A stretch of 49,954 nucleotides of DNA, from positions 1 through 49,954 of the forward strand of contig JAIPFY010000018.1 of the NCBI GenBank assembly GCA_021736385.1, in the 5' to 3' direction. Shown here piece by piece: positions 8,716-49,734 of the stretch. The position numbers and the translations under genes were made by a program. A model generated the notes under the pieces. It was not told where the DNA came from, made no database searches, and saw only the letters and a list, made by a program, of their open reading frames with translations. The stretch comes from Spirochaetia bacterium (GTDB lineage: Bacteria > Spirochaetota > Spirochaetia > CAKZLE01). How positions within the stretch are numbered: the first letter of the stretch is position 1; every line of letters begins with the position of its first letter.

Positions 8716-8755
8716 CAACTCCTCCTACTAGAGCATATGTGCGTTGTGTTACCAG

Positions 8756-8784: not shown

Positions 8785-8836
8785 TATCAGGGTACGGCCT
8801 GTATGGGTTAATTCTTCTGCAGTGAACCACCTGCAG

Positions 8837-10846: not shown

Positions 10847-10889
10847 GTCAGCTCCTTCATATCTATCGCATATATACAGCACCGCATCA

Positions 10890-10919
10890 TTGCGGATATA
10901 CTCATGTACATGGTATTTT
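10890..10919 (+). promoter_or_regulatory. Candidate promoter for the molybdenum-hydroxylase-like trio
   Basis: TTGCGG, 18 bases, then TATTTT lies 23 bases before the start codon of the 658-residue protein. It is a moderate sigma-70 match and the only reasonable one in the short ligA-trio intergenic region. Confidence 0.35.
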
Positions 10920-10941
10920 ATCATAAAGAGGAACAAAAGTC

Positions 10942-12918: not shown

Positions 12919-12920
12919 TC

Positions 12921-33342: not shown

Positions 33343-33936
33343 AGTGTACACCCTCACAGAGCCCGTATCAACTGCGATGCTGGCTTCTCCGCCATATCAT
33401 TCCCCGCCGTACATTCGAATCCTACCTGCAGGTAGGGTTCTAAGCCAGAGCCTCCTCCGATCCCCCTCTCCAGCGCAGCAGCTGCCTGCCCTGACACGAA
33501 TCCTACCCTTTTGTCAGATTTTTGCGAAAAACCTACATTCTCGTATCCTCTTCGTGCTCACATCAGCCTGCTGTATACTCCAGCGATCTGCTGCCTGGGC
33601 CTCTACCTCCACCTCATGGTGTCCGCCTGCCCTGTACCTGTCGGATACCTGGCAGCCCCAGCATGCTTTCATATTCTTTCACTACCGGATCACAGTACTT
33701 GGCACAGAACGTGCTATATGATCTCTGTCATACATCAGCGGTGAGGTGATACCCCCGATCAGCTGATGTACGGCTGTTAATGGGTATCTAGATGGGCAAT
33801 ATCATAAGATAGTGCAAGATTGAATAATTTTTTAAATAATGATTGCGTTATAGGAATCGCGATGCTACTATTTTATGTGAAATTGTTTAGGTGAACAGGT
33901 ACATGAGCACTTATGTATCCCACAAGTAACCAAGAC
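33343..33936. other. Gene-free region before the importer operon
   Basis: No reading frame here looks like a protein gene. A nested hairpin is present: CTGGCTT (33380-33386) with AAGCCAG (33442-33448), enclosing the 16-base palindrome CCTACCTGCAGGTAGG (33421-33436). CGAATCCTACC occurs at 33416 and again at 33497. Further downstream, TACATCAGC (33731-33739) pairs with GCTGATGTA (33762-33770). The part from 33780 is AT-rich and probably holds the importer promoter, though no clear box pair stands out. A small RNA is possible. Confidence 0.5.
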
Positions 33937-33968
33937 ACCTTGCAGGCAAACTGCTGCAAGTCTAAAAC
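33937..33968 (+). promoter_or_regulatory. Leader motif copy A, upstream of the importer operon
   Basis: ACCTTGCAG can pair with CTGCAAG, followed by TCTAAAAC. The last 13 bases (GCAAGTCTAAAAC, 33956-33968) recur exactly at 40997-41009 before the MtmB-like gene. Further hairpins follow (33969-33983, AGACA/TGTCT; 34016-34030, CATGG/CCATG). It lies about 185 bases upstream of the BMP start. It may be a riboswitch-like element or a shared operator. Confidence 0.5.
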
Positions 33969-34153
33969 AGACAGTTCTTGTCTCACATTCGTGTAGACGT
34001 AAGAAACCTCATGCACATGGTTCTTCCATGAGAAGCGGGTTCATACCTCTTTTCTAAAATCCTCCACTCTGACTCGGTTTTGTATCACTGCCGATGACGA
34101 TCGTATGATCTGTCCTCTGCAGATGCAGTTCATTTTTGAAAAAGGAGTATATG

Positions 34154-35224
34154 ATGAAGAGATTTTCCTGCATGATCCTGGTCCTGCTCGTTTCCATCTC
34201 CCTGTTTGCCGGAGGTGCACAGGAGAGCGCTGAAGAATTCAAAGTAGGGTTCGTCTTTACCGGTCCGATCGGGGACAATGGATGGACACAGCAGCACAAC
34301 ACCGCCCGACTTGCCATCGAAAGCGAACTCGGGGTGAAGACACTCTACAAAGAGAGCGTGCCGAACACTCAGGAGTCCGAGAAGGTCATGCGAGACATGA
34401 TCGCACAGGGCGCGAAGATGATCTTTGCCACCAGTTTTGGTTACATGGATTATATGCTCACCGTAGCAGAGGATAACCCCGATGTGAAGTTCTTCCACTG
34501 CGGCGGATACAAACAGGCTGACAATGCCGTGAACTATCTGGGCAGGATGTATGAGGCACGCTACCTCTCAGGTATCGTAGCAGCACTGAAGACACAGACC
34601 GGAAAGCTCGGCTATGTCGCGGCGTTCGAGATCCCTGAAGTCGTTCGCGGCATCAATGCCTTCACCCTCGGTGCACGAAGCATCAATCCCGCTATCACCG
34701 TCGAAGTGATCTGGACCCATGACTGGAATGACCCTCCACGGGAGAAGGAAGCGGCATTCGCCCTGATCGACAACGGCTGTGATGTGATCGCACAGCACCA
34801 GACCGCTCCTGCGAACCTGCAGGCGGCCGAAGCCCGCGGTGTATGGGGGATCGGATACCATGCAGACATGAACGCTGCAGCTCCCGAAGCCTGCCTGACC
34901 TCCCCCTACTGGAACTGGACCCCCTATTACCTGCAGGAAGTGCAGGCGGTACTGGACGGCACCTGGACAGCAGATAACTACTGGGGAGGCATGGATGAGG
35001 ACATCGTGCGTCTGGCAGAACTGGGTAAGAACGCACCTGCAGAAGCAGCAGCTGCAGTAGCAGAGATCGAAGATCTCATGAGAAGCGGTGAGTTCACCGT
35101 GTTCAAGGGACCGCTGAACGATAACACCGGCGCCCTGAAAGTCCCTGCAGGCAGCCAGATGGATGATGGCTCGCTGCTTGGATTCGACTGGCTGGTCGAA
35201 GGGGTCCTGGGAGCTATCAACTGA
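34154..35224 (+). CDS. BMP-family substrate-binding protein of a nucleoside-type ABC importer
   Basis: The 356-residue protein is a periplasmic binding protein of the PnrA/BMP family, known to bind purine nucleosides in spirochaetes and other bacteria. A signal peptide (MKRFSCMILVLLVSISLFA) ends before GGAQES; no lipobox Cys is present, so it is soluble or only loosely held rather than a lipoprotein. Family motifs include KVGFVFTGPIGDNGWT and KMIFATSFGYMD. AAAGGAG lies 6 bases before the ATG at 34154; the adjacent ATG at 34151 is also possible. First gene of the importer operon. The ligand is predicted as nucleoside or purine-like, not proven. Confidence 0.9.
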   Translation: MKRFSCMILVLLVSISLFAGGAQESAEEFKVGFVFTGPIGDNGWTQQHNTARLAIESELGVKTLYKESVPNTQESEKVMRDMIAQGAKMIFATSFGYMDYMLTVAEDNPDVKFFHCGGYKQADNAVNYLGRMYEARYLSGIVAALKTQTGKLGYVAAFEIPEVVRGINAFTLGARSINPAITVEVIWTHDWNDPPREKEAAFALIDNGCDVIAQHQTAPANLQAAEARGVWGIGYHADMNAAAPEACLTSPYWNWTPYYLQEVQAVLDGTWTADNYWGGMDEDIVRLAELGKNAPAEAAAAVAEIEDLMRSGEFTVFKGPLNDNTGALKVPAGSQMDDGSLLGFDWLVEGVLGAIN

Positions 35225-35336
35225 TCACGGGGGGGGAGATCCCCCGGGAATTCAGGTAACGGAAACAGGAGAGGGACAATCTTCAGATTGTCCCTCACAC
35301 TTCATCGACACTACCCGTACAGATCAGGAGATTACC

Positions 35337-36860
35337 TTGGAACATGTGAACAGCATCGAAATGAACCGGATCACGAAGACCTTCGGTTCGCTCAAAGCGA
35401 ACGACTGTGTTGATCTGCAGATACGATCAGGCGAGGTCCATGCCATCCTGGGAGAGAACGGTGCAGGGAAAAGCACCTTGATGAACATCCTCTCAGGCAT
35501 CTATCGTCCCGACAGCGGAAGCATCTGTCTACGCGGCAGACCCTGTTCGTTCCATGCACCGCAGGATGCCATCGATGCGGGCATAGGCATGATCTATCAG
35601 CACTTCAAACTCGTGGAAGCCTCTACAGCATGGGAGAACATCTGTGCAGGCCCCAAAGGTTCCTTTCTGCTGAAGCCCAGAGAACTGCAGCACCGGATAC
35701 AGAAGATCATCGAGGAGACCGGGCTCTGCATCCCCCTTGATAAACGCATCAAGGACATGGGGGTCGGAGAGAAGCAGACAGTCGAGATACTCAAAGTCCT
35801 CTACCGGGGGGCTGAGGTACTCATCCTCGATGAACCCACGACCGTCCTCACCCCGCAGGAGACCGACAGGCTCTTCTCGATCATCAGGACCCTCAAGGCT
35901 GCGGGGAAGACCGCGATCATCATCACCCATAAGCTCTTCGAGGTGATGGAGATCAGCGACAGGGTCACAGTGATGCGCAAAGGCCGGAACGTCGCGACGG
36001 TCAACACACCGGAAGTGACCCAGAAGCAGCTCGCAGAACTGATGGTGGGAAAGACCATGCTGATGGAGTATCCCCGTGTGAAGAGTGAACGTCGTGAGGT
36101 CCTGCTGAAAGTACGGAATCTCACGATCGAGGATGCCTCCTGCATGCGTTCGCTCAAAGATGTCTCGTTCGATCTCTACGGTGGAGAGATCCTGGGAGTC
36201 GCAGGAGTGTCCGGAAGCGGGCAGAGACAGCTGTGTCAGGGACTTGTCGGACTGCAGAAGATCAGCAGCGGTGAAGTCCTCGTCGGTAACGACAACATCG
36301 CAGGACTCTCTGCCAAGCAGATCTTCGAGAAAGGGGTGGTCCATCTGAACTTCGTCCCCGAGGACCGTCTGGGTATGGGACTTGTCGGGAACATGAGTCT
36401 GATCGATAACGTGCAGCTGAGGGACTACCGGAACAGCCGAGGTATGCTGATCGATCGAAAAGAAGCACACAGGAAGACCGAACAGCTGATCACCTCACTC
36501 GAAGTCATGCATCCGGGAATCGATCAACCGGTGAGGGTCCTCTCCGGAGGGAACATGCAGAAGATCCTGATCGGCAGAGAACTGATGAGCAAGCCGGAGA
36601 TCCTCATCGCGGCCTATCCGGTACGGGGATTGGACCTCGGAGTGACCCACAAGGTGATCGAACTGCTCAACGAGCAGAAACAGCTTGGAGTGGGCGTGCT
36701 GCTGATCGCCGAGGATCTCGATATGCTGCTGGAGGTATGTGACCGGATCATGGTCCTCTACTGCGGAGCGATCTCAGGCATCGCCGACCCGAAGACCACC
36801 ACGAAGTATGAACTGGGCATGATGATGGCCAGCGATGGACAGGAGTGCTGTCATGGTTAG
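35337..36860 (+). CDS. ABC transporter ATPase with two nucleotide-binding domains
   Basis: The 507-residue protein drives import, with two fused ABC domains as in nucleoside (NupA/YufO) and sugar importers. The first domain has Walker A GENGAGKSTL, a signature-like GVGEKQTVEIL and Walker B VLILDEPT. The second has a degenerate Walker A (GVSGSGQRQL), the signature LSGGNMQK and ILIAAYPVRGLDLG in place of a standard Walker B. This asymmetry is normal for the family. The start is taken as TTG at 35337 because AGGAG stands 6 bases upstream; a GTG and an ATG follow in frame. It overlaps the first permease by 8 bases. Confidence 0.9.
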   Translation: MEHVNSIEMNRITKTFGSLKANDCVDLQIRSGEVHAILGENGAGKSTLMNILSGIYRPDSGSICLRGRPCSFHAPQDAIDAGIGMIYQHFKLVEASTAWENICAGPKGSFLLKPRELQHRIQKIIEETGLCIPLDKRIKDMGVGEKQTVEILKVLYRGAEVLILDEPTTVLTPQETDRLFSIIRTLKAAGKTAIIITHKLFEVMEISDRVTVMRKGRNVATVNTPEVTQKQLAELMVGKTMLMEYPRVKSERREVLLKVRNLTIEDASCMRSLKDVSFDLYGGEILGVAGVSGSGQRQLCQGLVGLQKISSGEVLVGNDNIAGLSAKQIFEKGVVHLNFVPEDRLGMGLVGNMSLIDNVQLRDYRNSRGMLIDRKEAHRKTEQLITSLEVMHPGIDQPVRVLSGGNMQKILIGRELMSKPEILIAAYPVRGLDLGVTHKVIELLNEQKQLGVGVLLIAEDLDMLLEVCDRIMVLYCGAISGIADPKTTTKYELGMMMASDGQECCHG

Positions 36861-37950
36861 AGTCATCCAGCTGCCCACCTGCTCTCTGAGACGCAAAGTC
36901 CTGATCAGGACCACTGCGATCCTCTCCTCTCTGGTCTTTGCCGGAGTGCTGCTCCTGTTCCTCGGTCACAACCCCATCTCTGTCTATGGATCGATCCTGG
37001 AGGGAGGACTGGGATCCTCCTACAGATTCAAGGAGACCCTGACCCGTATGATCCCCCTTGCCCTGACCTCTCTGGGGATCGGTCTCTCCTTCAGGATGAA
37101 ATTCTGGAACATCGGGGGAGAGGGACAGATCATGATGGGAGCCTTCGGTGCGGCTTTCGTCGGTTTGAACTACAGCCATCTGCCCCAGCCGCTGGTCCTA
37201 ACGCTCATGGGGCTGGCAGGGATCATCTGCGGCGGGCTCTGGGCCCTGCTGCCAGCCTTTCTCAAAGTGAAGTACCGCACCAATGAGACGATCCTCACCC
37301 TCATGCTCAACTATGTGGCACTGAAGTGGATCACCTACATCCAGTATGTGGCCTGGAGAGACCCTGAAGCGTTCGGCTACCCGAAGATCCCGAATCTTGA
37401 AAGCAGTGCACAGCTTCCCAGGATCTTCGGTATCCACATCGGGATCATCCTGGTCCCGCTGCTGGTGCTGTTCATGTACCTGTTCATCACCTACACCAAG
37501 AAAGGGTATGAGATCCGGGTCATCGGCGAGAATGAACTGACGGCTCAGTATGCCGGCATGCCGGTGAAGAAGATCATCCTCAGCACCCTCTTCGTCAGCG
37601 GCGGTATCTGCGGACTGGTAGGGATGATCCAGATCGCGGGAGTGAACAGGACGCTCAGCATCGACGTGAGCAACAATGTCGGGTACACGGCTATCATCAT
37701 CTCCTGGCTTGCCCAACTCGATGCGATAGCTATCCTGGCAGCATCCTTCCTGTTCGCGGTCATGGTCGAAGGCGGCTCCTATATCCAGACGGTCTACCAG
37801 ATCCCCCAGGCCGCCGCATCACTGCTGCAGGGACTGATCCTCTTCTTCGTGCTCGGCAGTGAGTTCTTCATAAAATACCAGATGGTCTTCACTTCGAAGA
37901 AGGCAGAACGACTGCTGCTCGAAGCGACGACAGAACCGATACAGGAGTAG
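36853..37950 (+). CDS. ABC transporter permease (NupB/YufP-like)
   Basis: The 365-residue membrane protein resembles BPD_transp_2-type permeases that pair with BMP binding proteins. Several hydrophobic helices are present, and GGEGQIMMGAFGAAF plus RTNETILTLMLNYVALKW are typical. The C-terminal segment SLLQGLILFFVLGSEFF is also shared by the family. The ATG at 36853 follows ACAGGAG; the reading frame is open a little further upstream inside the ATPase gene. It forms a heterodimer with the next permease, judged from the paired genes. Confidence 0.88.
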   Translation: MVRVIQLPTCSLRRKVLIRTTAILSSLVFAGVLLLFLGHNPISVYGSILEGGLGSSYRFKETLTRMIPLALTSLGIGLSFRMKFWNIGGEGQIMMGAFGAAFVGLNYSHLPQPLVLTLMGLAGIICGGLWALLPAFLKVKYRTNETILTLMLNYVALKWITYIQYVAWRDPEAFGYPKIPNLESSAQLPRIFGIHIGIILVPLLVLFMYLFITYTKKGYEIRVIGENELTAQYAGMPVKKIILSTLFVSGGICGLVGMIQIAGVNRTLSIDVSNNVGYTAIIISWLAQLDAIAILAASFLFAVMVEGGSYIQTVYQIPQAAASLLQGLILFFVLGSEFFIKYQMVFTSKKAERLLLEATTEPIQE

Positions 37951-37951
37951 G

Positions 37952-38896
37952 ATGATGAATATACAGTGGTTCGTATTGTTCTTCAGTGCTGCAGTGGTCT
38001 CAGCTACTCCTCTGCTATTGGCAACGCTGGGAGAACTGCTTTCCGAAGAGAGCGGCAACCTCAATCTCGGTGTCGAAGGCATGATGTACATGGGTGCGGT
38101 GACCGGTTTCACCGTCGGGTTCATGACTGAGAATGCCCTCCTCGCCGTGGCGGCAGCTGCTGCTGCAGGGAGTGTCGGGGCACTGATCTTCGGGTTCCTC
38201 ACCATCACCCTCAGAGCCAACCAGATCGTCTCGGGACTGACCCTCACCCTCTTCGGGACGGGCTTCGCAGGTTTCGTCGGGACACCGATCGTCGGGAACA
38301 AGACCCCTCAGGTCATCATAGATACCTTCACGAAGATCAGGATCCCCCTGCTCGGGAACATCCCGATCATCGGAGATATCTTCTTCAATCAGGATCTGCT
38401 CATCTACTTCAGCTATCTGCTGGTCCTTGCCGCAGGTCTCTACCTCTATCATACCCGCTGGGGATTGAACGGGAGGATGGTTGGAGAGAACCCTGCTGCC
38501 GCTGATTCTCTGGGAATCTCCGTAACAGCCAGCCGATATGCACATGCCCTGCTCGGAGGGGCTCTGTGTGGACTGGGCGGCGGGTATCTGTCTCTGGTTT
38601 ATGTCCCATCCTGGCAGGATTCCATGGTAGCTGGGCGGGGCTGGATCGCCGTCGCACTGGTGATCTTCTCGAAATGGAACCCCTACAAGGTGATCCTCGG
38701 GGCCCTCTTCTTCGGCGGTCTGGACATCATAGGGTTCCGGCTCCAGCGATTCGATCTGCCGATCTCGACCTATTTTCTCGATGCCCTTCCCTATCTCATG
38801 ACCATCATGGTCCTGGTGATCGATACCATGAGGAAGGACTCCTTCAGCAAGGCCCCCCAGGCTCTCGGAGCCTCCTACTTCAGGGAGGAACGATAG
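37952..38896 (+). CDS. ABC transporter permease (NupC/YufQ-like)
   Basis: The 314-residue protein has about eight to ten hydrophobic segments and the family motif LNLGVEGMMYMGAVTGF near the N-terminus, then RANQIVSGLTLTLFGTGFAGF and GRGWIAVALVIFSKW. It is the second membrane subunit of the importer. One base follows the stop of the first permease. ATG at 37952 or 37955; AGGAG is 4 or 7 bases away. The RACo-like gene starts 3 bases after its stop, linking import to corrinoid metabolism. Confidence 0.88.
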   Translation: MMNIQWFVLFFSAAVVSATPLLLATLGELLSEESGNLNLGVEGMMYMGAVTGFTVGFMTENALLAVAAAAAAGSVGALIFGFLTITLRANQIVSGLTLTLFGTGFAGFVGTPIVGNKTPQVIIDTFTKIRIPLLGNIPIIGDIFFNQDLLIYFSYLLVLAAGLYLYHTRWGLNGRMVGENPAAADSLGISVTASRYAHALLGGALCGLGGGYLSLVYVPSWQDSMVAGRGWIAVALVIFSKWNPYKVILGALFFGGLDIIGFRLQRFDLPISTYFLDALPYLMTIMVLVIDTMRKDSFSKAPQALGASYFREER

Positions 38897-38899
38897 CAG

Positions 38900-40918
38900 A
38901 TGTCTGAAGCACGATCATGCCGCGTGACCCTGCAGCCTCTGGGATCATCAGTACACGTACCGGCAGGGACACGCCTCTATGAAGCGATCGAGCAGGTACG
39001 GGCACGTACATCTGCAGCAGCTCTGCAGTCACTGCGCTATGCCACCGTCTGCGGAGGTAAAGGGACCTGCGGGAAATGCCGCATCAGGATCAGCATGGAG
39101 AACCCTCCACCGATCACTGATGAGGAGTATCAGGCACTCAGCCCCCGGGAGATCGCAGATGGCATCAGGCTCTCCTGCTGCCTGACCGTGCAGCAGGATC
39201 TGGAGTGTACCCTTCTGCACGCCATGGATCCCGCCGCACCACAGATCCAGACCTCCTTCACCCGGACATCCTCAGCCATACAGTCCGGGCCGCTGTTCCG
39301 CGCTGTACGGCTTTTTGCAGCCTGCCCATCGATCACCGACCAGCGATCCACCCTGACCCGGCTGCAGCAGGTCCTTACAGGCTGTGCACCAGAATATGAG
39401 AGGGTTCACTGGCCTGCAGCGGCACGTTCTGTCCTCCCGACGGTAGAACAGTTCCTGCAGAAGAGATCAGACCGGAGCGAACAGGAACTGGCCGATCTGA
39501 CCCTCGAGCTGTTCGATCACCAGGTAGTAGGGATCTCACTGGGAGCTGAGAATGAAGAGGAGGCTCACCGCTACGGCGCTGCGATCGATATCGGGACGAC
39601 CACCCTCGCTGTCTATCTGGTCCAGCTGGAGACAGGCAGGGTGCTGGGAGCGGCCTCTGCGCTCAACCCGCAGAGCAGCAGAGGATCTGATGTCATAGCC
39701 AGGATCTCCTACACCATCGAGCATGAACAGGGGACACAGCTGCTTCAGAAGATGGTCATCAGAGAACTGGAACAGCTCATAGCAGAGCTGCTGCACAGCC
39801 ATCGGATACCCGATCATCAGTTCCGCTGTGCCCTGCTGGTAGGCAACACCACCATGCTGCACCTGCTGCTCGGTATGCAGCCGATCACGCTGGCCCGATA
39901 CCCCTACATACCGCTGTTCACCTCAGAGCAGCAGGTGCTCTCGTCATTCTCCCTGCGCGAGGCAGGACAGGCACAGCCGGTCGGCCCGGCTGCCGATCAT
40001 CGCCCGCTGCTGCAGGCATACCCGGGATGCTCCTGCCTGTGCGGTCCCTCAGCTTCAGCCTATCTGGGAGCGGATGTGGTCTCAGGCTGCATAGCTGCAG
40101 ACATGGACAGGGCAGAGGATGTGGTCCTCTTCATCGATATCGGTACCAACGGGGAGATCGTACTCTCCTGCAGAGGCAGTATCTTCGCAGCATCAGCTGC
40201 CGCAGGTCCTGCCTTCGAAGGAGCAGTCCTCTCCTGCGGCTCTGCAGGGGTGAGCGGAGCGATCGACCATGTCTGGATGGAGGGCTCCGAGCTGGTCTTC
40301 AGTACCATCGACAGGGTCCCGGCACATGCCCTGTGCGGTTCTGGCGCTGTGGATGCAGCCGCGGTGCTGCTTGATCAGGGGATCATACGGCCCGACGGCA
40401 GATTCGCAGCCCGCTCATTCACCGGTGATACGCAGGAGGACACGGAACAGCCTCTGAGTTCACGTTGTGTGATACGGGACGGGAAGAAGGCCTTCATGAT
40501 CTCAGATGACATCTGGCTGACGGGAAAGGATATCAGGGAGATCCAGCTTGCCAAGGCGGCGGTAGCTGCCGGTATCGATGCACTGCTGAGTGAGGCTGCT
40601 ATCGGTGCTGAGCAGATCGATCGGGTACTGATCGCAGGAGGGTTCGGTACCAGCCTCTCATCCGATGCACTGCTTCGAATCGGGATGCTCCCGGCAGTCC
40701 CTGCCGGATGCATCGAGATGATCGGGAACAGTGCAGGAAGCGGAGCGGTCGATCAGCTGATCAGCAGCGATACGAGAGACAGATGCCGCAGGCTCTCACA
40801 GCAGATGCAGATCATAGAACTCTCTTCACGGGCTTCGTTCGCACGGGAACTGGTCAGACACGTCCACTTCCCGGATCACAGGAACGCCCCTGAACAGAGA
40901 AAGGAGGTGTACAGCTGA
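38900..40918 (+). CDS. RACo-like reductive activator of corrinoid proteins (2Fe-2S + ASKHA ATPase)
   Basis: Such proteins use ATP to reduce inactive Co(II) corrinoid to Co(I) in methyltransferase systems. The 672 residues have an N-terminal [2Fe-2S] domain with CGGKGTCGKC (C51, C57, C60) and a further Cys at about 93/94. A linker precedes the ASKHA ATPase core: AAIDIGTTTLAVYL (phosphate loop), LLVGNTTMLHLLLG, FIDIGTNGEIVLS, ALCGSGAVDAAAV and IAGGFGT. This matches RACo and DUF4445 proteins rather than methanogen RamA, which carries a C-terminal 4Fe-4S domain. It lies 3 bases after the permease. The MtmB-like and corrinoid protein genes follow, so those are its likely clients. Confidence 0.9.
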   Translation: MSEARSCRVTLQPLGSSVHVPAGTRLYEAIEQVRARTSAAALQSLRYATVCGGKGTCGKCRIRISMENPPPITDEEYQALSPREIADGIRLSCCLTVQQDLECTLLHAMDPAAPQIQTSFTRTSSAIQSGPLFRAVRLFAACPSITDQRSTLTRLQQVLTGCAPEYERVHWPAAARSVLPTVEQFLQKRSDRSEQELADLTLELFDHQVVGISLGAENEEEAHRYGAAIDIGTTTLAVYLVQLETGRVLGAASALNPQSSRGSDVIARISYTIEHEQGTQLLQKMVIRELEQLIAELLHSHRIPDHQFRCALLVGNTTMLHLLLGMQPITLARYPYIPLFTSEQQVLSSFSLREAGQAQPVGPAADHRPLLQAYPGCSCLCGPSASAYLGADVVSGCIAADMDRAEDVVLFIDIGTNGEIVLSCRGSIFAASAAAGPAFEGAVLSCGSAGVSGAIDHVWMEGSELVFSTIDRVPAHALCGSGAVDAAAVLLDQGIIRPDGRFAARSFTGDTQEDTEQPLSSRCVIRDGKKAFMISDDIWLTGKDIREIQLAKAAVAAGIDALLSEAAIGAEQIDRVLIAGGFGTSLSSDALLRIGMLPAVPAGCIEMIGNSAGSGAVDQLISSDTRDRCRRLSQQMQIIELSSRASFARELVRHVHFPDHRNAPEQRKEVYS

Positions 40919-40984
40919 CAGGTGATACAGAGACGGGTACCCGGGGCTGCCGATACGTCACTTTCTGTAGATACAGCAAATGAA

Positions 40985-41009
40985 ACCTTGTCCAGGGCAA
41001 GTCTAAAAC
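40985..41009 (+). promoter_or_regulatory. Leader motif copy B, upstream of the MtmB-like gene
   Basis: ACCTTGTC can pair with GGCAAG and is followed by TCTAAAAC, as in copy A. GCAAGTCTAAAAC (40997-41009) is identical to the core at 33956-33968. Downstream stems are GCATGCC/GGCATGC (41042-41063), ACAGTC/GACTGT (41076-41100) and GGGGG/CCCCC (41119-41134). It lies 165 bases before the MtmB-like start, close to the 185 of copy A. Confidence 0.5.
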
Positions 41010-41173
41010 CAAATTGCTTGTTTAGTGAGAACCGTGGTACAGCATGCCGCACTCGAGGCATGCACTGAACAAGGAACAGTCGATCGATTGCATGGACTGT
41101 GTGTTATGGATATTCGAAGGGGGTTGTATCCCCCGCACAAGATGGATACTACACGTGGATAAGGAGATTATGT

Positions 41174-42550
41174 ATGAAACAGAAACCGGATCTTATTGAG
41201 ATTCTCAGACGATCACGAGAAGGAGAATACTGCAGCGCTCATGACTGGGACCTGAAGAAGATACCAAAGGGTGTCAAGAGTATGATCAAGAAATACGGGC
41301 TTGCGAACAGTGTCGACAAGGACAATCCCGTGAACATGGATATGGACCTTGCAGACACCTTCTACAAGGCAGGCTATGAACTGGCCCTGGAACTGGGGAT
41401 GCTCAACGAAGCCAGAGACCGCATCGTGAAGATCGATCAGGACGAACTGGACAGCACCCTGCACCTGGCACCCTCGGAACTGAAGATCGGTTTCGGTCAG
41501 GATCAGCGCGTCATGCGCTCCAGGACCCCCTCAGACCCGACTCCCATGCTCTTTGGATCCTCTCTGGGGATCACGATATCAGAGGACGTATGGCCGCTGC
41601 TGACCGAAGGGATCGCCAGACAGCTTGAAGTCGATATCCTCGAGGGAGGCTCACTGTGCACCATCAACGGACTCGATGCCCTGCCGAACGACCCCTCAGA
41701 GACCCTGCTGTGCTATGAACAGGGACGCATGCATCGCCAGATCCGAAAGAAGGCCGGAAGAGAGGGGATGCCGGGTATCGGCAACATCTCAGCGGTCACC
41801 GAGTTCGGTCAGTTCTGCTACGGCACCAAAGGCAATTTCTATAATACCGACCTCTCACTGATCCTCTACCCATCAGAGATGAAGATCAATAACCAGACAC
41901 TGCATAAAGTGGTACATACCCTCGCTATGGACGGTATGATCTTCGCCGGTTCACCGGGAATGATCGGCGGTATGCCGGGGACCCCTGAAGGTGCTGTCAT
42001 CTCCAGTATCGCAGCCTCCCTGCTGCAGTACGCGATACTCTTTGCAAGCGTCGGCGGTGGAGAACTCTACGACATCAGGTACCTCTCAAACGTGAACAGG
42101 GAAGGACTCTGGGCCCTGAGCATGACCCATCAGGCATTGAGCAGGAACACCCACCTGATCACCCATGGCATCGCCAATCAGGTCTCAGGACCGGGAACGA
42201 AAGAACTGCTCTATGAGACCCTTGCAGGAGTCGCCGTGATCGCAGCCTCAGGAGCGGCCTTCTCTACCGGCCCGCGTTCTGCAGGCGGCAAGCTGAATGA
42301 CTACCTCTCTCCCCTGGACTGCAGATGGTGTGCTGAAGTGGCACATGCCGCATCGGGCATGGCCTTGAGTGATGTGAATGAGCTGGTCAAACAGGTCCTG
42401 CCCAAGTTCGAAAGCACGATCAAGTCACCGAACATCGGGAAACCCGTCCAGGAAGTGTGGGACCTCAAGAACTTCAGACCGCTCCCGGAAGCAGAAGCGG
42501 TGTATGACCAGGTGAGAAAAGAGGCTGTCGAGTTCGGGCTGCCTCTGTAG
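41174..42550 (+). CDS. MtmB-family methyltransferase, non-pyrrolysine
   Basis: The 458 residues equal the length of archaeal monomethylamine methyltransferase MtmB and share its start (GEYCSAHDWDLKKIP, KYGL) and end (CRWCAEVAHAASGMALSDVNEL, NIGKPVQEVWDLKN). MtmB transfers a methyl group from an amine to a corrinoid protein using pyrrolysine at position 202. Here residue 202 is Ile (ATC at 41777-41779, in GMPGIGNIS), and no in-frame amber codon is present. As with non-pyrrolysine MttB relatives, a different substrate is expected, perhaps an N-methylated heterocycle. AAGGAG lies 7 bases before the ATG. Co-transcribed with the corrinoid protein. Confidence 0.88.
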   Translation: MKQKPDLIEILRRSREGEYCSAHDWDLKKIPKGVKSMIKKYGLANSVDKDNPVNMDMDLADTFYKAGYELALELGMLNEARDRIVKIDQDELDSTLHLAPSELKIGFGQDQRVMRSRTPSDPTPMLFGSSLGITISEDVWPLLTEGIARQLEVDILEGGSLCTINGLDALPNDPSETLLCYEQGRMHRQIRKKAGREGMPGIGNISAVTEFGQFCYGTKGNFYNTDLSLILYPSEMKINNQTLHKVVHTLAMDGMIFAGSPGMIGGMPGTPEGAVISSIAASLLQYAILFASVGGGELYDIRYLSNVNREGLWALSMTHQALSRNTHLITHGIANQVSGPGTKELLYETLAGVAVIAASGAAFSTGPRSAGGKLNDYLSPLDCRWCAEVAHAASGMALSDVNELVKQVLPKFESTIKSPNIGKPVQEVWDLKNFRPLPEAEAVYDQVRKEAVEFGLPL

Positions 42551-42586
42551 GCACCCCCCTGCTGATCATTAACAAGGAGTATGAAG

Positions 42587-43279
42587 ATGAATGATATTAC
42601 CAAGAAACTATATGAAGCGGTCATAGAGGGCGAAGAAGACATCGCTCTGGAAGTGGCACAGAAGAGTATCGATAGCGGCATGGATCCGCTGACAACGATC
42701 AAAGAGGGCATCCAGGCCGCTATGGATGAGATGGGCGAACGCTTCGAAGAGGGCGAGGCCTTTCTTCCCGAGCTGATGCTCGCAGGAGATGCCGCCACCT
42801 GTGCGATGGATCTGCTGCTCGAAAAGATCAAAGCTGACGGCGGTGACTCCTCAGACGCCGGCACCGTCGTACTGGGAGTCATGTCCGGAGACCACCACGA
42901 TATCGGGAAGAACCTGGTGAAGGCCATCCTCTCCGCTAACAGCTTCAAGGTCATTGACCTGGGTATCGATGTGGGGGTGAAGAAGTTCATAGAGACGGCG
43001 AAACAGGTGAAAGCCGACATCATCGCCTGCTCTACCCTGATCACCACCTCCCTCCCCTACCAGAAGGAACTCATAGACACCCTTGCTGCCATGGGGATCA
43101 GGAACCAGTATAAAGTGATCCTCGGAGGAGGACCGGTCACCCCGCAGTGGACGAAGACCATCACTGCTGACGGCTACTCGAATACCGCTTCAGAGTGTGT
43201 GGTACTGTGCAAGCAGCTGATCGCACAGGAGACCGCTGGAGGAGAGGCTGATCCGATCATCATCGGAGCGATCTCCTGA
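42587..43279 (+). CDS. Corrinoid methyltransferase protein (MtmC/MtbC-like)
   Basis: The 230-residue protein carries the cobamide that shuttles the methyl group. An N-terminal helical cap (LYEAVIEGEEDIALEVAQ, MDEMGERFEEGEAFLPELML) precedes the Rossmann B12-binding domain with GVMSGDHHDIGKNLV (the DxHxxG motif, whose His ligates cobalt from below), then STLITTSLPYQKEL and ILGGGPVTPQW. The ATG at 42587 is preferred because it is 7 bases from AAGGAG; an in-frame ATG 6 bases earlier is too close. It follows the MtmB-like gene by 36 bases and should be its direct partner. Confidence 0.93.
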   Translation: MNDITKKLYEAVIEGEEDIALEVAQKSIDSGMDPLTTIKEGIQAAMDEMGERFEEGEAFLPELMLAGDAATCAMDLLLEKIKADGGDSSDAGTVVLGVMSGDHHDIGKNLVKAILSANSFKVIDLGIDVGVKKFIETAKQVKADIIACSTLITTSLPYQKELIDTLAAMGIRNQYKVILGGGPVTPQWTKTITADGYSNTASECVVLCKQLIAQETAGGEADPIIIGAIS

Positions 43280-43313
43280 GGACCGAACACAGAGAATAGG
43301 GGCTGAGAGACGA

Positions 43314-44009
43314 ATGGACCATCTGATCATCTGCGACAGTGTATTCTCCGAGTGCAGCTCGATGATCCCGCGTGACATGAGCTGCACGGTGGTCCCCTTT
43401 GCCCTTCACAGCAACCCCCGGAACCTGAAAGCTGTCATACAGGAGCATATAGACCAGGCTCCCGGGGAATGCGAGGTCATCCGTATCGGGTTCGGGCTGT
43501 GCTCGAACAGTACCCTCGGACTGGTATCAGACCGGCATACCCTGCTGCTCCCGCGGGTGCATGACTGCATCGCCCTGTTCCTCGGGTCACAGCAGCGGCT
43601 GGCCGAACAGGGACTTGCCTCACTGTACGTGACACGACGGTATGCAGAAGCCGAAGACGGTACCTACCACCTGCTCGAGTATGACAGATATGCCCAGCGG
43701 TACGGATCGGAACTGGCAAAGAAGTATATCGGTATGGTGATCGACGGGTACAGGAAGGCACTGCTGATCGATACCGGGGAGTACCCGGTCGATCGGTACC
43801 GACAGATCACCAGGCAGCTGTGCACCGACTACTGCCTGCAGTACGGGGAGCTTGCAGGCTCCCGTGTACTCATGAAGAAGATGCTCACGGACGACGGCAG
43901 TGATGAACAGATCATCAGGAAGAGACCGTCAGAACCGGTGGGACTCGACGACTATAGTGCCCGACCACAGCAGAACAGCATCCCTGCTGCAGCCGGGCAG
44001 GAGGATTAG
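43314..44009 (+). CDS. DUF1638-like protein
   Basis: The 231-residue protein shows the pattern of DUF1638: an N-terminal Cys-rich segment (CDSVFSECSS), IGFGLCSNSTLGL, RVHDCIALFLGS and a Tyr-rich region (YERY-like: YDRYAQRYGSELA). The family often lies beside corrinoid methyltransferase genes and its biochemical role is unknown. Conserved Cys and His could bind a metal or a cobamide intermediate. It ends directly at the start codon of the FAD subunit gene, so the two are translated in series. Confidence 0.7.
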   Translation: MDHLIICDSVFSECSSMIPRDMSCTVVPFALHSNPRNLKAVIQEHIDQAPGECEVIRIGFGLCSNSTLGLVSDRHTLLLPRVHDCIALFLGSQQRLAEQGLASLYVTRRYAEAEDGTYHLLEYDRYAQRYGSELAKKYIGMVIDGYRKALLIDTGEYPVDRYRQITRQLCTDYCLQYGELAGSRVLMKKMLTDDGSDEQIIRKRPSEPVGLDDYSARPQQNSIPAAAGQED

Positions 44010-44798
44010 ATGATACAGGAATTCATACGACCGGAAGGTGTACAAGAGGCCATGGAGCTGATCGCAGAGGACCGGCAAGCCGCATTCTTCGCAGGCGGGA
44101 CCTGCATCAACCATGCACGCTGCCCGCAGGAGGTGAGCAGAGCGATCTCACTCGAAGCTCTGGGACTCGATCACATCACCTGCACCGATACGACCGTCAG
44201 TATAGGAGCGACAGTGACCCTGCAGCAGCTGATCGACAGCCCGCTGATCCCCCGATCCCTGCAGCAGGCCGCTGCAGGACTCTATTCACGCAATGTACGG
44301 AACATGGCGACGATCGGCGGGAATATCGCAGCAGGCTGGAAGCATGCCCTGCTCACCCCGGTCCTCGCTGCTCTTGAGGCACAGCTTCTCACCGGGAACG
44401 GAGAGAGCATCCCGATCCTTGCCTATGAGGGGAGCTCGAAACTGCTCATCACCTCTGTCGTGTTGAAGACCGATCAGCGATACTGCTCGAGTTCGATCTA
44501 TCGCAGATCAAGTGGGTCCGCACCGAAGGTGCAGGTTGCCGTCTCCTGCCGTACTGATATGACCGACCCGCTGGTTATCATCAGCGGGCTGCATGCGACC
44601 GTCAGGAGCCTGAAGGAGTTCGGACCGGTATTCACAGCCGCTCGATCATCCTCAGAGCCTGTCCCTCTCATCCTCGATGCGTTGGGCACTCTTGATCCGA
44701 TCGATGAGGACATCCACTGTTCCAGAGATTTCCTTCGATACACGAGTGCGCGACTCATAGCAGAGGGAATCAGATCCTGTGCAGGAGGTGCACGATGA
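44010..44798 (+). CDS. FAD-binding subunit of a molybdenum hydroxylase
   Basis: The 262-residue protein matches the FAD subunit of xanthine dehydrogenase-type enzymes. The first FAD motif is FFAGGTCINHAR and the second is MATIGGNIAAGW. The C-terminal domain continues to the end but is short. AGGAGG lies before the ATG, which follows the DUF1638 stop without a gap. Its stop overlaps the start of the molybdenum subunit (ATGA). In a standard enzyme it would receive electrons from [2Fe-2S] centres, but none is encoded in this operon. Confidence 0.88.
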   Translation: MIQEFIRPEGVQEAMELIAEDRQAAFFAGGTCINHARCPQEVSRAISLEALGLDHITCTDTTVSIGATVTLQQLIDSPLIPRSLQQAAAGLYSRNVRNMATIGGNIAAGWKHALLTPVLAALEAQLLTGNGESIPILAYEGSSKLLITSVVLKTDQRYCSSSIYRRSSGSAPKVQVAVSCRTDMTDPLVIISGLHATVRSLKEFGPVFTAARSSSEPVPLILDALGTLDPIDEDIHCSRDFLRYTSARLIAEGIRSCAGGAR

Positions 44799-47668
44799 AC
44801 ATCACATTCACCTTGAACGGCGTCTCCAGAAGTGTTGACACAGCCCCCGGAGAGTCTCTGCAGAAGTTCCTGCAGCGGCTCGGATTCTCATCTGTTCGCA
44901 ACAGCGATGACCGCTATGGCTTCACCGGCAGCGATACCATCCTCTTTGATCACCGGCCGGTGAATGCAGGACTGATGGTCACCGGACAGATCAGCGGGCA
45001 TACGATCGACACCATAGAGTCCCTCGCTGGAGCAGGCAACAGCCTCAGTGCCGTGCAGTCCGCTCTCATCGATGCGGGAGTCGTGCAGTCCGGGTACAAT
45101 GCCCCTGCAGCCGCTCTGCTGCTCACTGATCTGCTCAACAGGATCCCGGACCCCTCACGAGAGGAGATCCAGGATGCATTCTCAGGTCTCTATAACCGTG
45201 CCACCGGCTACCAGCAGTTCTTCACTGCCGTCGAGATCGCGAAGAGCCGGATCATAGATCCGCAGCATAGCCGGAAAGTCAGTGAGGAGTTCAGACCGGA
45301 TCTGAGGATCATCGGAAAGAACCATCGAAAGATCGACGGACAGCGACTGGTCCAGGGAGAACGGGCGTTTGTGGAAGACATGGTCACACAAGGGTCACTG
45401 GTGCTCAAGCTGCTGCACAGCCCCCATGCCCATGCCTATATCAGGGAGATCGATACCACCAGAGCTGAACAGCTTCCGGGAGTGGTACTGGTACTGACCT
45501 ATAAGAATGTACCCGATGTCTACTACACCCCCGCAGGGCAGGGGTTCCCCGAACCATCACCCTATGACCGAAGGATGTTCGCCAGAAAACTGTACCATAT
45601 CGGTGACAGGGTAGCCGGTGTCGTAGCTGTCGATGAGCAGACAGCTCTCAAGGCTCTCTCCTGCATCGATGTCACCTACGATGAACTCACACCGATATTC
45701 ACGATCGATGAGGCCGAGGCTCCCGATGCCCCGATCATCCATAAGGCTCACATCTCCTATGCGGTAGGGGCTCCTGATACTCTTGATGCCGATAACGCGG
45801 AAGCAGACCCGAGAGACGGACGGATAGAGATCCAGTTCCCCATCGGCGCTGATCCCCACCGGAACAAGGCCGCCAGTGTCTCAGGCTCCATCGGTGACAT
45901 CGAGCAGGGCTTCGCACAGGCCAATACAGTGATCGAGAGGACCTATACCACCACACAGGTTCAGTGCACCCCCTGTGAGACTCATGTGGTCTTCACCAGG
46001 ATGGAGGGGGGCCGTCTGATCATCCATGCCTCCACACAGGTGCCCTGGCACGTGCGAAGGATCACTGCCAGAGTGCTCGGCATCAGCGAGAACAAGATAC
46101 GGGTGATCAAGGAGCGCGTTGGCGGCGGCTATGGGTCGAAGCAGGAGATCCTGCTCGAAGAGGTGTGTGCCTATGCCACCTGGATCACGGGAAAACCTGT
46201 CTACTTCCATTTCACCCGGGAAGAGGAGTATACCTGCAGCGTCTCACGCTTTCCCATGAAGATCAGAGTCAAACTCGGAGCAAAGAAGGACGGGACCTTC
46301 ACCGCCATGTATATGGACCTGAAAGCCAACACGGGACCATTCGGCAACCACTGCCTGACCGTCCCCATGAACGGCTGTTCGAAATCACTGCCGCTGTTCC
46401 TCTGTGATAACATCGCCTTTGATGTGAACGTGTTCTACTCCAACTGCATGCCTACCGGAGCCTACCAGGGGTACGGCGCACCGAAAGCCAACTATGCCCT
46501 GCAGATGGCTGTCGCCGAACTGGCAGAACAGCTTCAGATGGACCCGCTCGCACTGGTGGAGAAGAACCGTGTGGACGAGGGTGTCACCCTTGAGATCCTC
46601 AGGTGCCTGGGAGAAGGTCGTGAAGGATCTCCGGAAGTGATCACCAGCTGCGGTCTGGCTGAAGCAGTCAGACAGGGTGCACAGATGATCGAATGGGGGA
46701 AGACCGAGACTTCAAAGAATCCCCTGCTGCGCATCGGCAAAGGTATGGCGATCGTACAGCAGGGCTCAGGACTGCCGGGACTCGATCACTCCAATGCCGA
46801 GGTGAAACTCGAAAGTGACGGATCGGTCATCGTGCACTCAGGAGGGGCTGACATCGGGACAGGGTTCGATACCCTCTGTGCGAAGACCGCCGCAGAAGTA
46901 CTGATGATGGACACGGACCTCGTCGCAGTAGTGACCGGTGATACGGACAGTACCCCCTTCGATTCGGGAGCCTTCGCTTCCAGCGGGACCTACTTCTCAG
47001 GAGGGGCGGTCTTCAATGCCGCAGTAGCCCTGAGACAGAAGATCATCACTGCCGCGGCCCAGCTGCTCGGAGAGGCTGAAGATGAGATCACCATAACCTA
47101 TCCGCAGACAGCTGCAGGCAAGACCGGATCGGTCACCTTCGCACAGATCGCCCATCAGTCTCAGAGCGGAGAGGGCAGCGGACACCTGATCGGTACCGCA
47201 TCCTTCACCTGCGAGAAGGCAGCCTTCCCCTATGGGGCCCATTTCGCTCAGGTATCGGTGAACACCGAGTCCGGTGAGATCCGGGTGGAGAAGTATTATG
47301 CGCTGCAGGACTGCGGCACACCGCTCAATCCCGAACTGGCAGAGGGGCAGATCTACGGGGGCGTGCTGAAAGCGATCGGCCATACCCTCTTCGAGGAGCT
47401 GATCCTTGATGAGCAGGGGAAGTGCCTCACCACCGATCTGGAGACCTACGGGATACCGATGATCAACGACATCCCTGATGATTTCCGGGTGAAGCTCATC
47501 GAGACCTGCGACCCGCACGGACCGTTCGGCAGCAAATCGGTCTCAGAGATCAGCATGAACGGGGCAGCCCCTGCCATAGCGAATGCTGTCCACGATGCGA
47601 CAGGCATCTGGATCAGAGACTGGCCGATCACACCGGAGAAGGTGCTGAAGGCATTAGGAACCTACTGA
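44795..47668 (+). CDS. Molybdenum hydroxylase large subunit fused to a cysteine-free ferredoxin-like domain
   Basis: The 957 residues combine an N-terminal ferredoxin-like domain (about 1-150) with a xanthine dehydrogenase-type molybdenum domain. The first part follows the small-subunit pattern, but every expected cluster Cys is replaced: RNSDDRYGFTGSD (35-47), VNAGLM (56-61), QSGYNAPA (98-105) and LYNRATGYQ (132-140). No Cys occurs in the first 150 residues, so no cluster can form. The rest keeps the cofactor motif GGGYGSK (443-449), GAYQGYGAPKANYA and SKSVSEIS with catalytic Glu918, so hydroxylation chemistry looks intact. The fused order resembles selenium-dependent xanthine dehydrogenases. 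The substrate is unknown. Confidence 0.9.
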   Translation: MNITFTLNGVSRSVDTAPGESLQKFLQRLGFSSVRNSDDRYGFTGSDTILFDHRPVNAGLMVTGQISGHTIDTIESLAGAGNSLSAVQSALIDAGVVQSGYNAPAAALLLTDLLNRIPDPSREEIQDAFSGLYNRATGYQQFFTAVEIAKSRIIDPQHSRKVSEEFRPDLRIIGKNHRKIDGQRLVQGERAFVEDMVTQGSLVLKLLHSPHAHAYIREIDTTRAEQLPGVVLVLTYKNVPDVYYTPAGQGFPEPSPYDRRMFARKLYHIGDRVAGVVAVDEQTALKALSCIDVTYDELTPIFTIDEAEAPDAPIIHKAHISYAVGAPDTLDADNAEADPRDGRIEIQFPIGADPHRNKAASVSGSIGDIEQGFAQANTVIERTYTTTQVQCTPCETHVVFTRMEGGRLIIHASTQVPWHVRRITARVLGISENKIRVIKERVGGGYGSKQEILLEEVCAYATWITGKPVYFHFTREEEYTCSVSRFPMKIRVKLGAKKDGTFTAMYMDLKANTGPFGNHCLTVPMNGCSKSLPLFLCDNIAFDVNVFYSNCMPTGAYQGYGAPKANYALQMAVAELAEQLQMDPLALVEKNRVDEGVTLEILRCLGEGREGSPEVITSCGLAEAVRQGAQMIEWGKTETSKNPLLRIGKGMAIVQQGSGLPGLDHSNAEVKLESDGSVIVHSGGADIGTGFDTLCAKTAAEVLMMDTDLVAVVTGDTDSTPFDSGAFASSGTYFSGGAVFNAAVALRQKIITAAAQLLGEAEDEITITYPQTAAGKTGSVTFAQIAHQSQSGEGSGHLIGTASFTCEKAAFPYGAHFAQVSVNTESGEIRVEKYYALQDCGTPLNPELAEGQIYGGVLKAIGHTLFEELILDEQGKCLTTDLETYGIPMINDIPDDFRVKLIETCDPHGPFGSKSVSEISMNGAAPAIANAVHDATGIWIRDWPITPEKVLKALGTY

Positions 47669-47690
47669 CATACACACAAGGAGTAACACC

Positions 47691-49067
47691 ATGGATATGA
47701 CTGGTAAAGAACTGATACAACAGATCCTGAGGCATCAGGAGGTCCCGAGACCTGCATGGGTCCCCTATGCGGGGATCCATGCAGGAAAGACTAGAGGCTA
47801 TACAGCGATCGAAGTGCTGCAGGACCCTGACAAGCTGTTCGAATCGCTCATGGAAGTAAACCGGCTCTACAGCCCCGACGGACAGACGGTGATGTTCGAC
47901 CTGCAGCTCGAGGCGGAGATCCTCGGCTGTTCTCTCGCCTGGGTCGATAACAATCTGCCCTCTGTCGTCTCACACCCGCTTGCAGATACCGATGAGATCC
48001 CCACGTATCTGCCCGGGAAAGAGGACGGCCGCCTCCCGATGGTCTGGAACGTGATGAAGAGATTCAAAGATGCTGTGGGAGACCACACGGCGCTCTATGG
48101 GCTCTTCTGCGGGCCGTTCACCCTGGCCTCCCACCTGAGGGGGACGAACATCTTCATGAACATGATCAAACGGCCGGAGTACCTCGATACCCTGCTTGCC
48201 TACACCCTTGAGGTCTCGAAGCGGATGGTCGACTTCTACGCCGAAGAGGGCATGGATATCATCGTCCCGGTGGACCCGCTGATGTCTCAGATCTCCCCCA
48301 AACATTTCAAACGGTTCTTCCTCGAACCCTACAGCGAGCTCTTTCGCTACATACGCAGCAAACAGACCTTCAGTTCGTTCTTCGTCTGCGGTAATGCGAT
48401 CCATAATATTGAGCTGATGTGTGCATGCGGTCCCGATTCGATAGCCATCGATGAGAATGTGAGCATGATCAAGGCAAAGCAGATCACCGATTCCTATGAT
48501 GTGGTGCTCGGGGGGAACATACCGCTTACCACGGTCATGCTCTTCGGCAACCAGCAGGACAATATGAAGTACACGGTGGATCTGCTCGATGAGATCGAAG
48601 CTGCCGGGCTCTCGTGCACAAAGAACCTGATCATAGCTCCCGGCTGTGACATGCCTTACGATGTACCGCCCCAGAATGCCGTAGCGGTCGCTCAGGCCGT
48701 ACAGGAGCCGGAGCGCATACGGAAGCTGGTGAAAGATTACAGCAGTACCACCTTCAGTGACCTGGAGATAGACCTGCCGAACTACCAGTCCCTGAAAAGA
48801 CCGCTGGTAGAGGCGTTCCTGCTTGATCCCATCGCCTGTGCCGCCTGCACCTATATGCTTGCTGCAGCACAGTCAGCAGCTGATATTCTCGGTGACGAGA
48901 TAGATTTCGCAGAGTATCGGTACAATACGGCAGAACACATCGCCCGTATGCAGCAGCTGCAGATCTCCTGTCTGCCGAGTATCTACATCAACGGAGAGCT
49001 CGCCTATCCTTCGATCATCCCGAGTACCGAAGAGCTCATCGAGAAGATCAGATCCTCCATGCCCTAG
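47691..49067 (+). CDS. MtaA/UroD-family methyltransferase fused to a thioredoxin-like domain
   Basis: The 458 residues contain an MtaA/MtbA-type (UroD fold) domain, about 1-350, that would move the methyl group from corrinoid to an acceptor. The zinc motif H-x-C is here F231-V-C233 (in FVCGN), with C319 in APGCD as the usual third ligand, so one expected His ligand is missing. Residues about 370-458 look like a thioredoxin fold: CAAC (383-386), CLPSIYINGE with a cis-Pro-like position, and a final helix. MtaA proteins are normally about 340 long. The acceptor may be tetrahydrofolate or a thiol. AAGGAG precedes the ATG. Confidence 0.85.
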   Translation: MDMTGKELIQQILRHQEVPRPAWVPYAGIHAGKTRGYTAIEVLQDPDKLFESLMEVNRLYSPDGQTVMFDLQLEAEILGCSLAWVDNNLPSVVSHPLADTDEIPTYLPGKEDGRLPMVWNVMKRFKDAVGDHTALYGLFCGPFTLASHLRGTNIFMNMIKRPEYLDTLLAYTLEVSKRMVDFYAEEGMDIIVPVDPLMSQISPKHFKRFFLEPYSELFRYIRSKQTFSSFFVCGNAIHNIELMCACGPDSIAIDENVSMIKAKQITDSYDVVLGGNIPLTTVMLFGNQQDNMKYTVDLLDEIEAAGLSCTKNLIIAPGCDMPYDVPPQNAVAVAQAVQEPERIRKLVKDYSSTTFSDLEIDLPNYQSLKRPLVEAFLLDPIACAACTYMLAAAQSAADILGDEIDFAEYRYNTAEHIARMQQLQISCLPSIYINGELAYPSIIPSTEELIEKIRSSMP

Positions 49068-49266: not shown

Positions 49267-49734
49267 ATGCAGAAGAATGCTGGTGACAGAGTTGATTCGT
49301 TTCAGCTCTTCACCGAACTGTTTCCCAGACTGATCCATTCAGTCATGCACGGCTATGAATCAGAGGTCGGCCGCAGGCTGGGGCTCAACCATTCACAGGT
49401 ACAGACCCTGGTGGTACTCAACCGGAAGACCATCTTCAGGATGAGTGATCTCTGTCACAAGATCCATCTGAAGAAGAGTTCGGTGACGTCCCTCGTCGAT
49501 TCCCTTGAGAAGCTCGGCTACGTGCTGCGGGAACGACCGCAGGATGACCGAAGAGCGGTCGTCGTACGCCTCACGGAGACCGGGATGACCACTGCAGCAG
49601 CGTGTCAGAAGGAGATCCAGGCACGGTTCGCACAGAAACTCTCCAGCCTGAGTGACAGCGAACAGCAGGAGCTGTGGCACTCTCTGGATACGATCAATAC
49701 CATCATACTGAAAATGGAGCATATAGACGCATGA
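49267..49734 (+). CDS. MarR-family transcriptional regulator
   Basis: The 155-residue winged-helix protein has MarR-type features: LNHSQVQTLVVLNRK, RMSDLCHKIHLKKSSVTSLVDSLEKLGYV (recognition helix) and the wing DDRRAVVVRLTETG with the conserved D-x-R pair. It probably represses itself and the MATE transporter gene that follows, with which it overlaps by ATGA. GGAGG lies before the ATG. Confidence 0.92.
   Translation: MQKNAGDRVDSFQLFTELFPRLIHSVMHGYESEVGRRLGLNHSQVQTLVVLNRKTIFRMSDLCHKIHLKKSSVTSLVDSLEKLGYVLRERPQDDRRAVVVRLTETGMTTAAACQKEIQARFAQKLSSLSDSEQQELWHSLDTINTIILKMEHIDA

Follow-up and report, generated by a model that had tools for sequence, protein, structure and literature searches.

A spirochaete gene cluster with a probable role in the import and corrinoid-dependent demethylation of N-methylated purines

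What would a bacterium take up and demethylate with a set of genes that combines a purine-type importer, a corrinoid methyltransferase related to MtmB and a molybdenum enzyme? This question is raised by eleven consecutive genes, all on the + strand at positions 34154–49067, in a 49,954-nucleotide stretch of DNA (the window) from a Spirochaetia bacterium (GenBank assembly GCA_021736385.1, contig JAIPFY010000018.1, contig C108 in our numbering). The assembly has 3.23 Mb in 113 contigs and is 94% complete. Methylated purines enter anoxic habitats from tRNA, rRNA, caps, damaged DNA, tea, coffee and cocoa. Sequence comparisons suggest that the cluster probably serves the import and corrinoid-dependent N-demethylation of such a methylated purine, the ring of which would then pass into reductive urate degradation.

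The original prediction had named this gene set and proposed that an N-methylated purine or a similar ring is imported and demethylated by way of a corrinoid protein. Profile matches and measurement of the gaps confirmed every gene of the set on the + strand, with intergenic gaps in gene order of 127, -26, 1, 3, 255, 30, 34, 0, -4 and 22 bp. The spacing is close except for the 127 bp 3′ of the binding protein gene and the 255 bp between the genes for the RACo-like activator and the MtmB homologue. The cluster is still best read as one that imports an N-methylated purine and demethylates it in a corrinoid-dependent way, because the molybdenum subunit is orthologous to XdhD, the binding protein has an AtzT-like site, genes of a purine pathway are found on another contig of the same genome (C13), and the gene combination recurs across phyla when compared with a control.

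The central gene of the cluster begins at 41174 (41174–42550, + strand) and encodes a protein of 458 amino acids that belongs to the family of MtmB, the monomethylamine:corrinoid methyltransferase (PF05369, 222.2 bits against a cut-off of 25), and aligns end to end with the MtmB structure 1l2q. The two enzymes agree in family and length, and each comes with a corrinoid protein and a reductive activator. MtmB has pyrrolysine at position 202, whereas the homologue in the window has Ile, as do 29 of the 29 aligned sequences, and no in-frame stop (TAG, the pyrrolysine codon) interrupts its open frame. In the same alignment Glu229, Glu259 and Gln333, which we take to be important residues of MtmB, are aligned with Leu, Gly/Asp/Ala and Ile, respectively. 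Because pyrrolysine 202 is Ile and these three residues are replaced, simple methylamine is an unlikely substrate, and the protein is better regarded as a candidate N-methylpurine:corrinoid methyltransferase. One PF05369 gene was found in the host genome; its closest named relatives include those of a Spirochaetota metagenome-assembled genome (MAG; 85%) and an uncultured Spirochaetia MAG (83%). In a tree of 42 sequences, the enzyme falls inside an 18-row clade (support 100/100) that spans Spirochaetota, Kiritimatiellota, Chloroflexota and Actinomycetota. A second clade, with a weakly supported sister position (80/54), holds nine more paralogues from these clusters, whereas the paralogue at 2–1069 of the clade locus L009 groups with control sequences.

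A function for a pyrrolysine-free MtmB homologue was reported in 2026 for MtqB, a tetramethylammonium/choline methyltransferase described in PMC13044021 as the first demonstrated case. Like the enzyme of the window, MtqB has its own corrinoid protein. Unlike MtqB, which was compared here by its description alone, the gene in the window sits with a purine-type importer and XdhD.

The importer is encoded by the first four genes, which specify a BMP/PnrA-type substrate-binding protein (34154–35224), an ABC transporter ATPase with two ABC domains according to profile matches (35352–36860), and two BPD_transp_2 permeases (A, 36835–37950; B, 37952–38896), all on the + strand. The best solved relatives of the binding protein are AtzT (6pi5, 302 bits), which is the closest, and 3s99. 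AtzT was purified with bound guanine (about 110 nM), which stacks in a sandwich of Tyr45 and Trp194; Ser97, the backbone of Phe98 and Glu165 hold it, together with Asn218 and Asn220 (PMC6834077). The binding proteins of the window and of loci L002 and L004 retain Ser97, Phe98, Glu165 and Trp194, and position 45 is Trp instead of the Tyr of AtzT. Both stacking positions as well as Ser97, Phe98 and Glu165 are thus common to AtzT and the protein of the window.

The molybdenum subunit (44795–47668, + strand), fused to a Fer2-like domain, is an XdhD orthologue by the NCBIfam model TIGR03313 (1324.7 bits, cut-off 1101.9) and is 56% identical to Escherichia coli XdhD over 955 amino acids. It is preceded by a YgfM-like FAD subunit (44010–44798, + strand) that is 33% identical to E. 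coli YgfM and scores 140 bits with TIGR03312, under the cut-off of 241.5. The active-site Glu606 of E. coli XdhD, named in PMC12507026, is kept (aligned residue Glu607). The cluster cysteines of the Fer2 domain are gone in the window, in L002, in the L004 stretch and in E. coli XdhD, and are retained in L017. In E. coli, a reductive urate pathway begins with the reduction of uric acid to 2,8-dioxopurine (yanthine) by XdhD and YgfM (PMC12507026). Hydroxylation of the ring by the molybdenum enzyme had been expected at the outset. Its grouping with the urate reductase XdhD makes it more likely that the subunit reduces a urate-type purine than that it acts as a hydroxylase, and oxidative hydroxylation by a xanthine-dehydrogenase-like enzyme was rejected on the same ground.

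The E. coli pathway is described as XdhD-YgfM-YgfK-SsnA-HyuA-YgeW-YgeY-YgeX (PMC12507026). Counterparts of XdhD and YgfM are found in the cluster of the window, and contig C13 of the same genome holds YgfK (1429.9 bits), SsnA (578.8 bits), YgeY (473.9 bits) and YgeW (778.9 bits), all over their NCBIfam cut-offs, in addition to an XdhABC-like set, YgfM and a second XdhD that is 61% identical to that of the window. An amidohydrolase on C13 is 69% identical to a gene of L004 that passes the 8-oxoguanine deaminase model. HyuA and YgeX gave no match at E 1e-5 in positions 8000–38348 of C13, the part of the genome searched for them. A corrinoid methyltransferase gene is missing from the E. coli cluster, whose transporters are symporters, whereas XdhD in the window lies inside a methyl transfer operon. 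A scan of 392 phylum genomes gave XdhD over the cut-off in 48; with no more than two candidates scored in each, only the host genome was listed with two. The presence of an extra XdhD in the methyl transfer operon suggests a dedicated substrate.

To what extent is this combination conserved? A scan of 84,980 species genomes yielded 16 relative loci of the MtmB clade, which with the window make 17 loci from 14 genomes (L006, L012 and L014 come from one MAG, with L012 and L014 overlapping on one contig, and L015 and L016 from another). Several of these loci are cut by contig ends, and the molybdenum match of L015 is a fragment. Nearby were found the importer binding protein at 10 of the 17 loci, the molybdenum subunit at 11 and an 8-oxoguanine-deaminase-type gene at 9, and at least one of these three partners was present at 16 loci, in four phyla and with differing gene orders. 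Importer genes lay near the MtmB gene at 9 of the 16 relative loci, so that importer and methyltransferase genes do co-occur in relatives, as expected from the original prediction. Both deaminases tested, among 13 in the clade loci, pass the NCBIfam cut-off for 8-oxoguanine deaminase. Locus L016 further carries a carbamate kinase over the cut-off and a gene of the carbamoyltransferase family. Several MtmB paralogues are present at 6 of the 16 relative loci, as would be expected if several N-methyl positions were attacked.

The control consisted of loci with MtmB homologues of other clades, namely all contigs outside the host genome that were matched in the phylum scan (12 loci from 8 genomes). 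None of the 12 has the binding protein, the molybdenum subunit or the deaminase. Ten of them were read first; L076 and L077 were added on re-check and left the result unchanged (in L077 the MtmB of the window has no match at E 1e-6, and its placement comes from a profile match). Permeases and an XdhD-type subunit are likewise absent from all 12 loci, some of which contain an ABC ATPase of some kind (4/12), a RACo-like gene (2/12) or a pterin-binding methyltransferase-like gene (2/12). Fisher's test for any partner in the clade versus the control gave P = 2.5e-7 when loci are counted and 3.1e-6 when genomes are, values that are nominal in that the loci are related, the partner genes were picked after looking, and the control loci are shorter (126 kb in total versus 269 kb for the 16 relative loci). 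At the level of genomes, SsnA over the cut-off was found in 7 of 13 clade genomes versus 1 of 14 control genomes, which were general model organisms; three more clade genomes have SsnA just under the cut-off (442.9 to 451.1 versus 455.5 bits).

How would these proteins work together? The AtzT-like binding protein and the ABC importer would take up the purine base. Its N-methyl group would then be passed by the MtmB homologue to the corrinoid protein (42581–43279, + strand; B12-binding domains and a DHHDIG motif); the Ile at the pyrrolysine position is as expected of an enzyme whose substrate is not simple methylamine. Judging from their families, two proteins would keep the corrinoid as Co(I), namely the RACo/AcsV-like reductive activator of corrinoid proteins (38900–40918, + strand), which has a Fer2 domain and scores 329.9 bits with the AcsV model, under the cut-off of 800, and the DUF1638 protein (43314–44009, + strand; profile match). 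In Phaeobacter, a DUF1638 protein and a RamA-like protein are both required for methionine synthesis with a split MetH; both were assigned to B12 reactivation, and the available text of the paper contains no specific proposal for DUF1638 (PMC5764234). The same role is repeated as a prediction in PMC12478193, and by analogy the DUF1638 protein of the window is a probable helper of corrinoid reactivation. By orthology, XdhD and YgfM would strip the 6-oxo group of a urate-type purine, either before or after demethylation, and the ring would be broken by YgfK, SsnA, YgeY and YgeW, the genes of which are present on C13.

In the last step the methyl group would probably be handed to a thiol or another acceptor by the product of the eleventh gene (47691–49067, + strand), in which profile matches reveal an MtaA/UroD-type methyltransferase that carries a fused thioredoxin-like domain (CAAC). 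This thioredoxin-like C-terminus scores 27.4 bits with NF047660, under the cut-off of 105. Loci L016 and L017 encode a shorter MtaA-like form. Of 7998 scored candidates, 5137 are homologues, and among the 120 matches listed several have both PF13192 and PF01208, one of them from Ca. Dichloromethanomonas. The operon differs from the Type 1 mlp gene clusters, which have at least two distinct Mlp genes according to the available text of PMC10418091: it has one UroD-family gene, together with the MtmB, importer and XdhD genes, and the pair of Mlp2 and Mlp3 that marks a Type 1 cluster was not found among the operon genes.

It had also been proposed that the methyl group is sent to one-carbon metabolism. 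The host genome does not support such a route, as acetyl-CoA synthase was not found and the only Pterin_bind (PF00809) match lies inside an open frame of 1227 amino acids on contig C36, which is probably MetH, Pterin_bind being the one domain seen. One MTHFR match is located near it. Acetogenic use of the methyl group was rejected, as no acetyl-CoA synthase was found. Among the relatives, L004, L006, L007 and L009 each have a gene from the family of methyl-H4folate:corrinoid methyltransferase; one such gene was tested, that of L009, and passes the model for this enzyme. MTHFR is additionally present in L006 and L007. In the Acidimicrobiia MAG, GcvT-like folate-binding proteins adjoin MtmB paralogues (L012, 4468–5703; L014, 15587–16822) and possibly represent a different methyl route.

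Several observations weigh against demethylation of an N-methylated purine. No purine enzyme that acts specifically on a methylated form is encoded in the cluster, and MtqB, the characterised pyrrolysine-free homologue of MtmB, acts on tetramethylammonium and choline (PMC13044021). Neither acetyl-CoA synthase nor a stand-alone methyl-H4folate:corrinoid methyltransferase was found in the host genome at its 94% completeness. In the H-x-C motif of the MtaA-like protein, Phe stands for His in the window and in L002, the His being kept in the shorter form of L016 and L017. In the binding proteins of the window, L002 and L004, Asn218 and Asn220 of AtzT are replaced by His and Thr. Since these two residues closely contact the isopropyl group of 2-hydroxyatrazine in AtzT (PMC6834077), the replacements could make room for a methyl group. 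The importers at most Chloroflexota and Actinomycetota loci of the clade retain little of the site besides the two aromatic positions (outside the window, L002 and L004, Glu165 is retained only in the L009 importer), and their ligands may differ. Locus L006 shows none of the three partners; its contig reaches no further than 133 bp upstream of the match, and in the same MAG the importer lies beside other MtmB copies (L012 and L014). Finally, one control locus (L038, genome G349) has an MtmB homologue (9350–10708, 29%) 3.8 kb from YgfK (14475–17462, 52%), hinting at a possible purine link outside the main MtmB clade.

Could the substrate of the methyltransferase instead be a plain quaternary amine such as choline or tetramethylammonium, as it is for MtqB, with the purine genes as unrelated salvage neighbours? 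Demethylation of tetramethylammonium and choline is the only reported function found for a pyrrolysine-free MtmB homologue (PMC13044021), and pyrrolysine-free relatives of the MttB family act on betaines (PMC12478193). We consider this explanation unlikely, as a choline/betaine transporter is absent among the operon genes and the purine partners recur with the clade in four phyla and in differing gene orders but at none of the 12 control loci; the remaining pyrrolysine-free clades are, moreover, called functionally unknown in the available text of PMC13044021. Another N-methylated heterocycle, purine-like as far as the importer and the molybdenum enzyme are concerned (such as a pteridine, an s-triazine or a nicotinate-type or hydantoin-type compound), appears to be a slightly poorer candidate still. 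AtzT also binds 2-hydroxyatrazine and ammeline (PMC6834077), and the molybdenum family acts on many N-heterocycles, with nicotinate, quinoline and 4-hydroxybenzoyl-CoA enzymes listed among its members; the 56% identity to the urate reductase XdhD, and the urate pathway genes and second XdhD in the same genome, argue for a purine.

The cluster might also exist to scavenge the methyl group, for example for methionine via the MtaA-like fusion or MetH, with purine use being secondary. The need for DUF1638 and a RamA-like protein in the methionine synthesis of Phaeobacter (PMC5764234) points in this direction, as do the Ruegeria corrinoid protein that is common to betaine demethylation and methionine synthesis (PMC12478193) and the neighbouring PF00809 and MTHFR matches on contig C36. 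Such scavenging leaves the XdhD paralogue and the purine importer unexplained, and we regard it as about as improbable as the quaternary amines. It is nevertheless compatible with demethylation of an N-methylated purine, from which it differs mainly in purpose.

The acidity of purine N-H groups is near that of phenols and ammonium ions, and purines are therefore chemically plausible leaving groups for this type of methyl transfer. Among the open-licence papers listed by literature searches, none reports corrinoid-dependent removal of purine methyl groups and none describes how anaerobes remove purine N-methyl groups. Corrinoid demethylation and the reductive breakdown of urate have each been described before; to see them combined with a purine importer is new as far as we have seen. 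Beyond the single cluster, we are inclined, if only slightly, to think that N-methylpurines (methylguanines, methylxanthines and methylurates) are demethylated via a corrinoid protein by one pyrrolysine-free family of MtmB homologues that spans Spirochaetota, Kiritimatiellota, Chloroflexota and Actinomycetota, possibly with switching by a purine through a new leader RNA in the spirochaete branch. If true, this would add aromatic ring nitrogens to the amines and ethers of vitamin B12 methyl chemistry, and would provide a function for an MtmB branch without an assigned role, tied to the recently reported reductive urate pathway. Anaerobes would gain a route to methylated bases derived from nucleic acids and to plant alkaloids.

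The possible leader RNA is suggested by a motif that occurs twice on the + strand of the window. The first copy (33935–33984) lies before the importer genes and consists of a short hairpin followed by TCTAAAAC; the second (40983–41027) lies between the RACo-like and MtmB genes, within their 255-bp gap. A hairpin followed by TYTAAAAC precedes both gene blocks in the window and in L002. No Rfam family matched the motif in the window at the gathering score, and no riboswitch family was found at E up to 10, a threshold at which the second copy gave no Rfam match of any kind. A search pattern had three hits in 392 genomes, the two leaders of the host operon and one place in another genome, compared to four for a reversed control pattern; as the pattern was written from the two host leaders, only their being its sole hits in the host genome is informative. 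The distance from CTTG to CAAG is 14, 9, 7 and 7 bases in four leaders, the alignment of which left out a fifth (L003) that does not align in register. This variation makes a DNA operator for a dimeric regulator less likely. The folding energies (z = -1.44, -1.62, 0.11 and -2.18) do not single the leaders out. Promoter scans placed three sites (1.5 expected) upstream of the importer genes and none upstream of the MtmB gene, terminator scans found no sites, and a general repeat search returned no informative family. The motif is a candidate for a shared cis-regulatory RNA and is offered as a lead.

Other genes of the host genome were noted in passing. On contig C86, a second BMP-type importer adjoins an amidohydrolase that shares 42% identity with the 8-oxoguanine-deaminase-like gene of L004 (L062, 7180–13245). 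Another molybdenum-hydroxylase-like set in the window (8744–14274) consists of a protein of 733 amino acids without a family match and three matched subunits (a shortened molybdenum, a [2Fe-2S] and an FAD subunit), all three far under the NCBIfam cut-offs. A hybrid cluster protein (hydroxylamine reductase; 31373–33019, 834 bits) is encoded immediately upstream of the operon, and a gene for a MarR-type regulator (49267–49734) lies downstream of the cluster.

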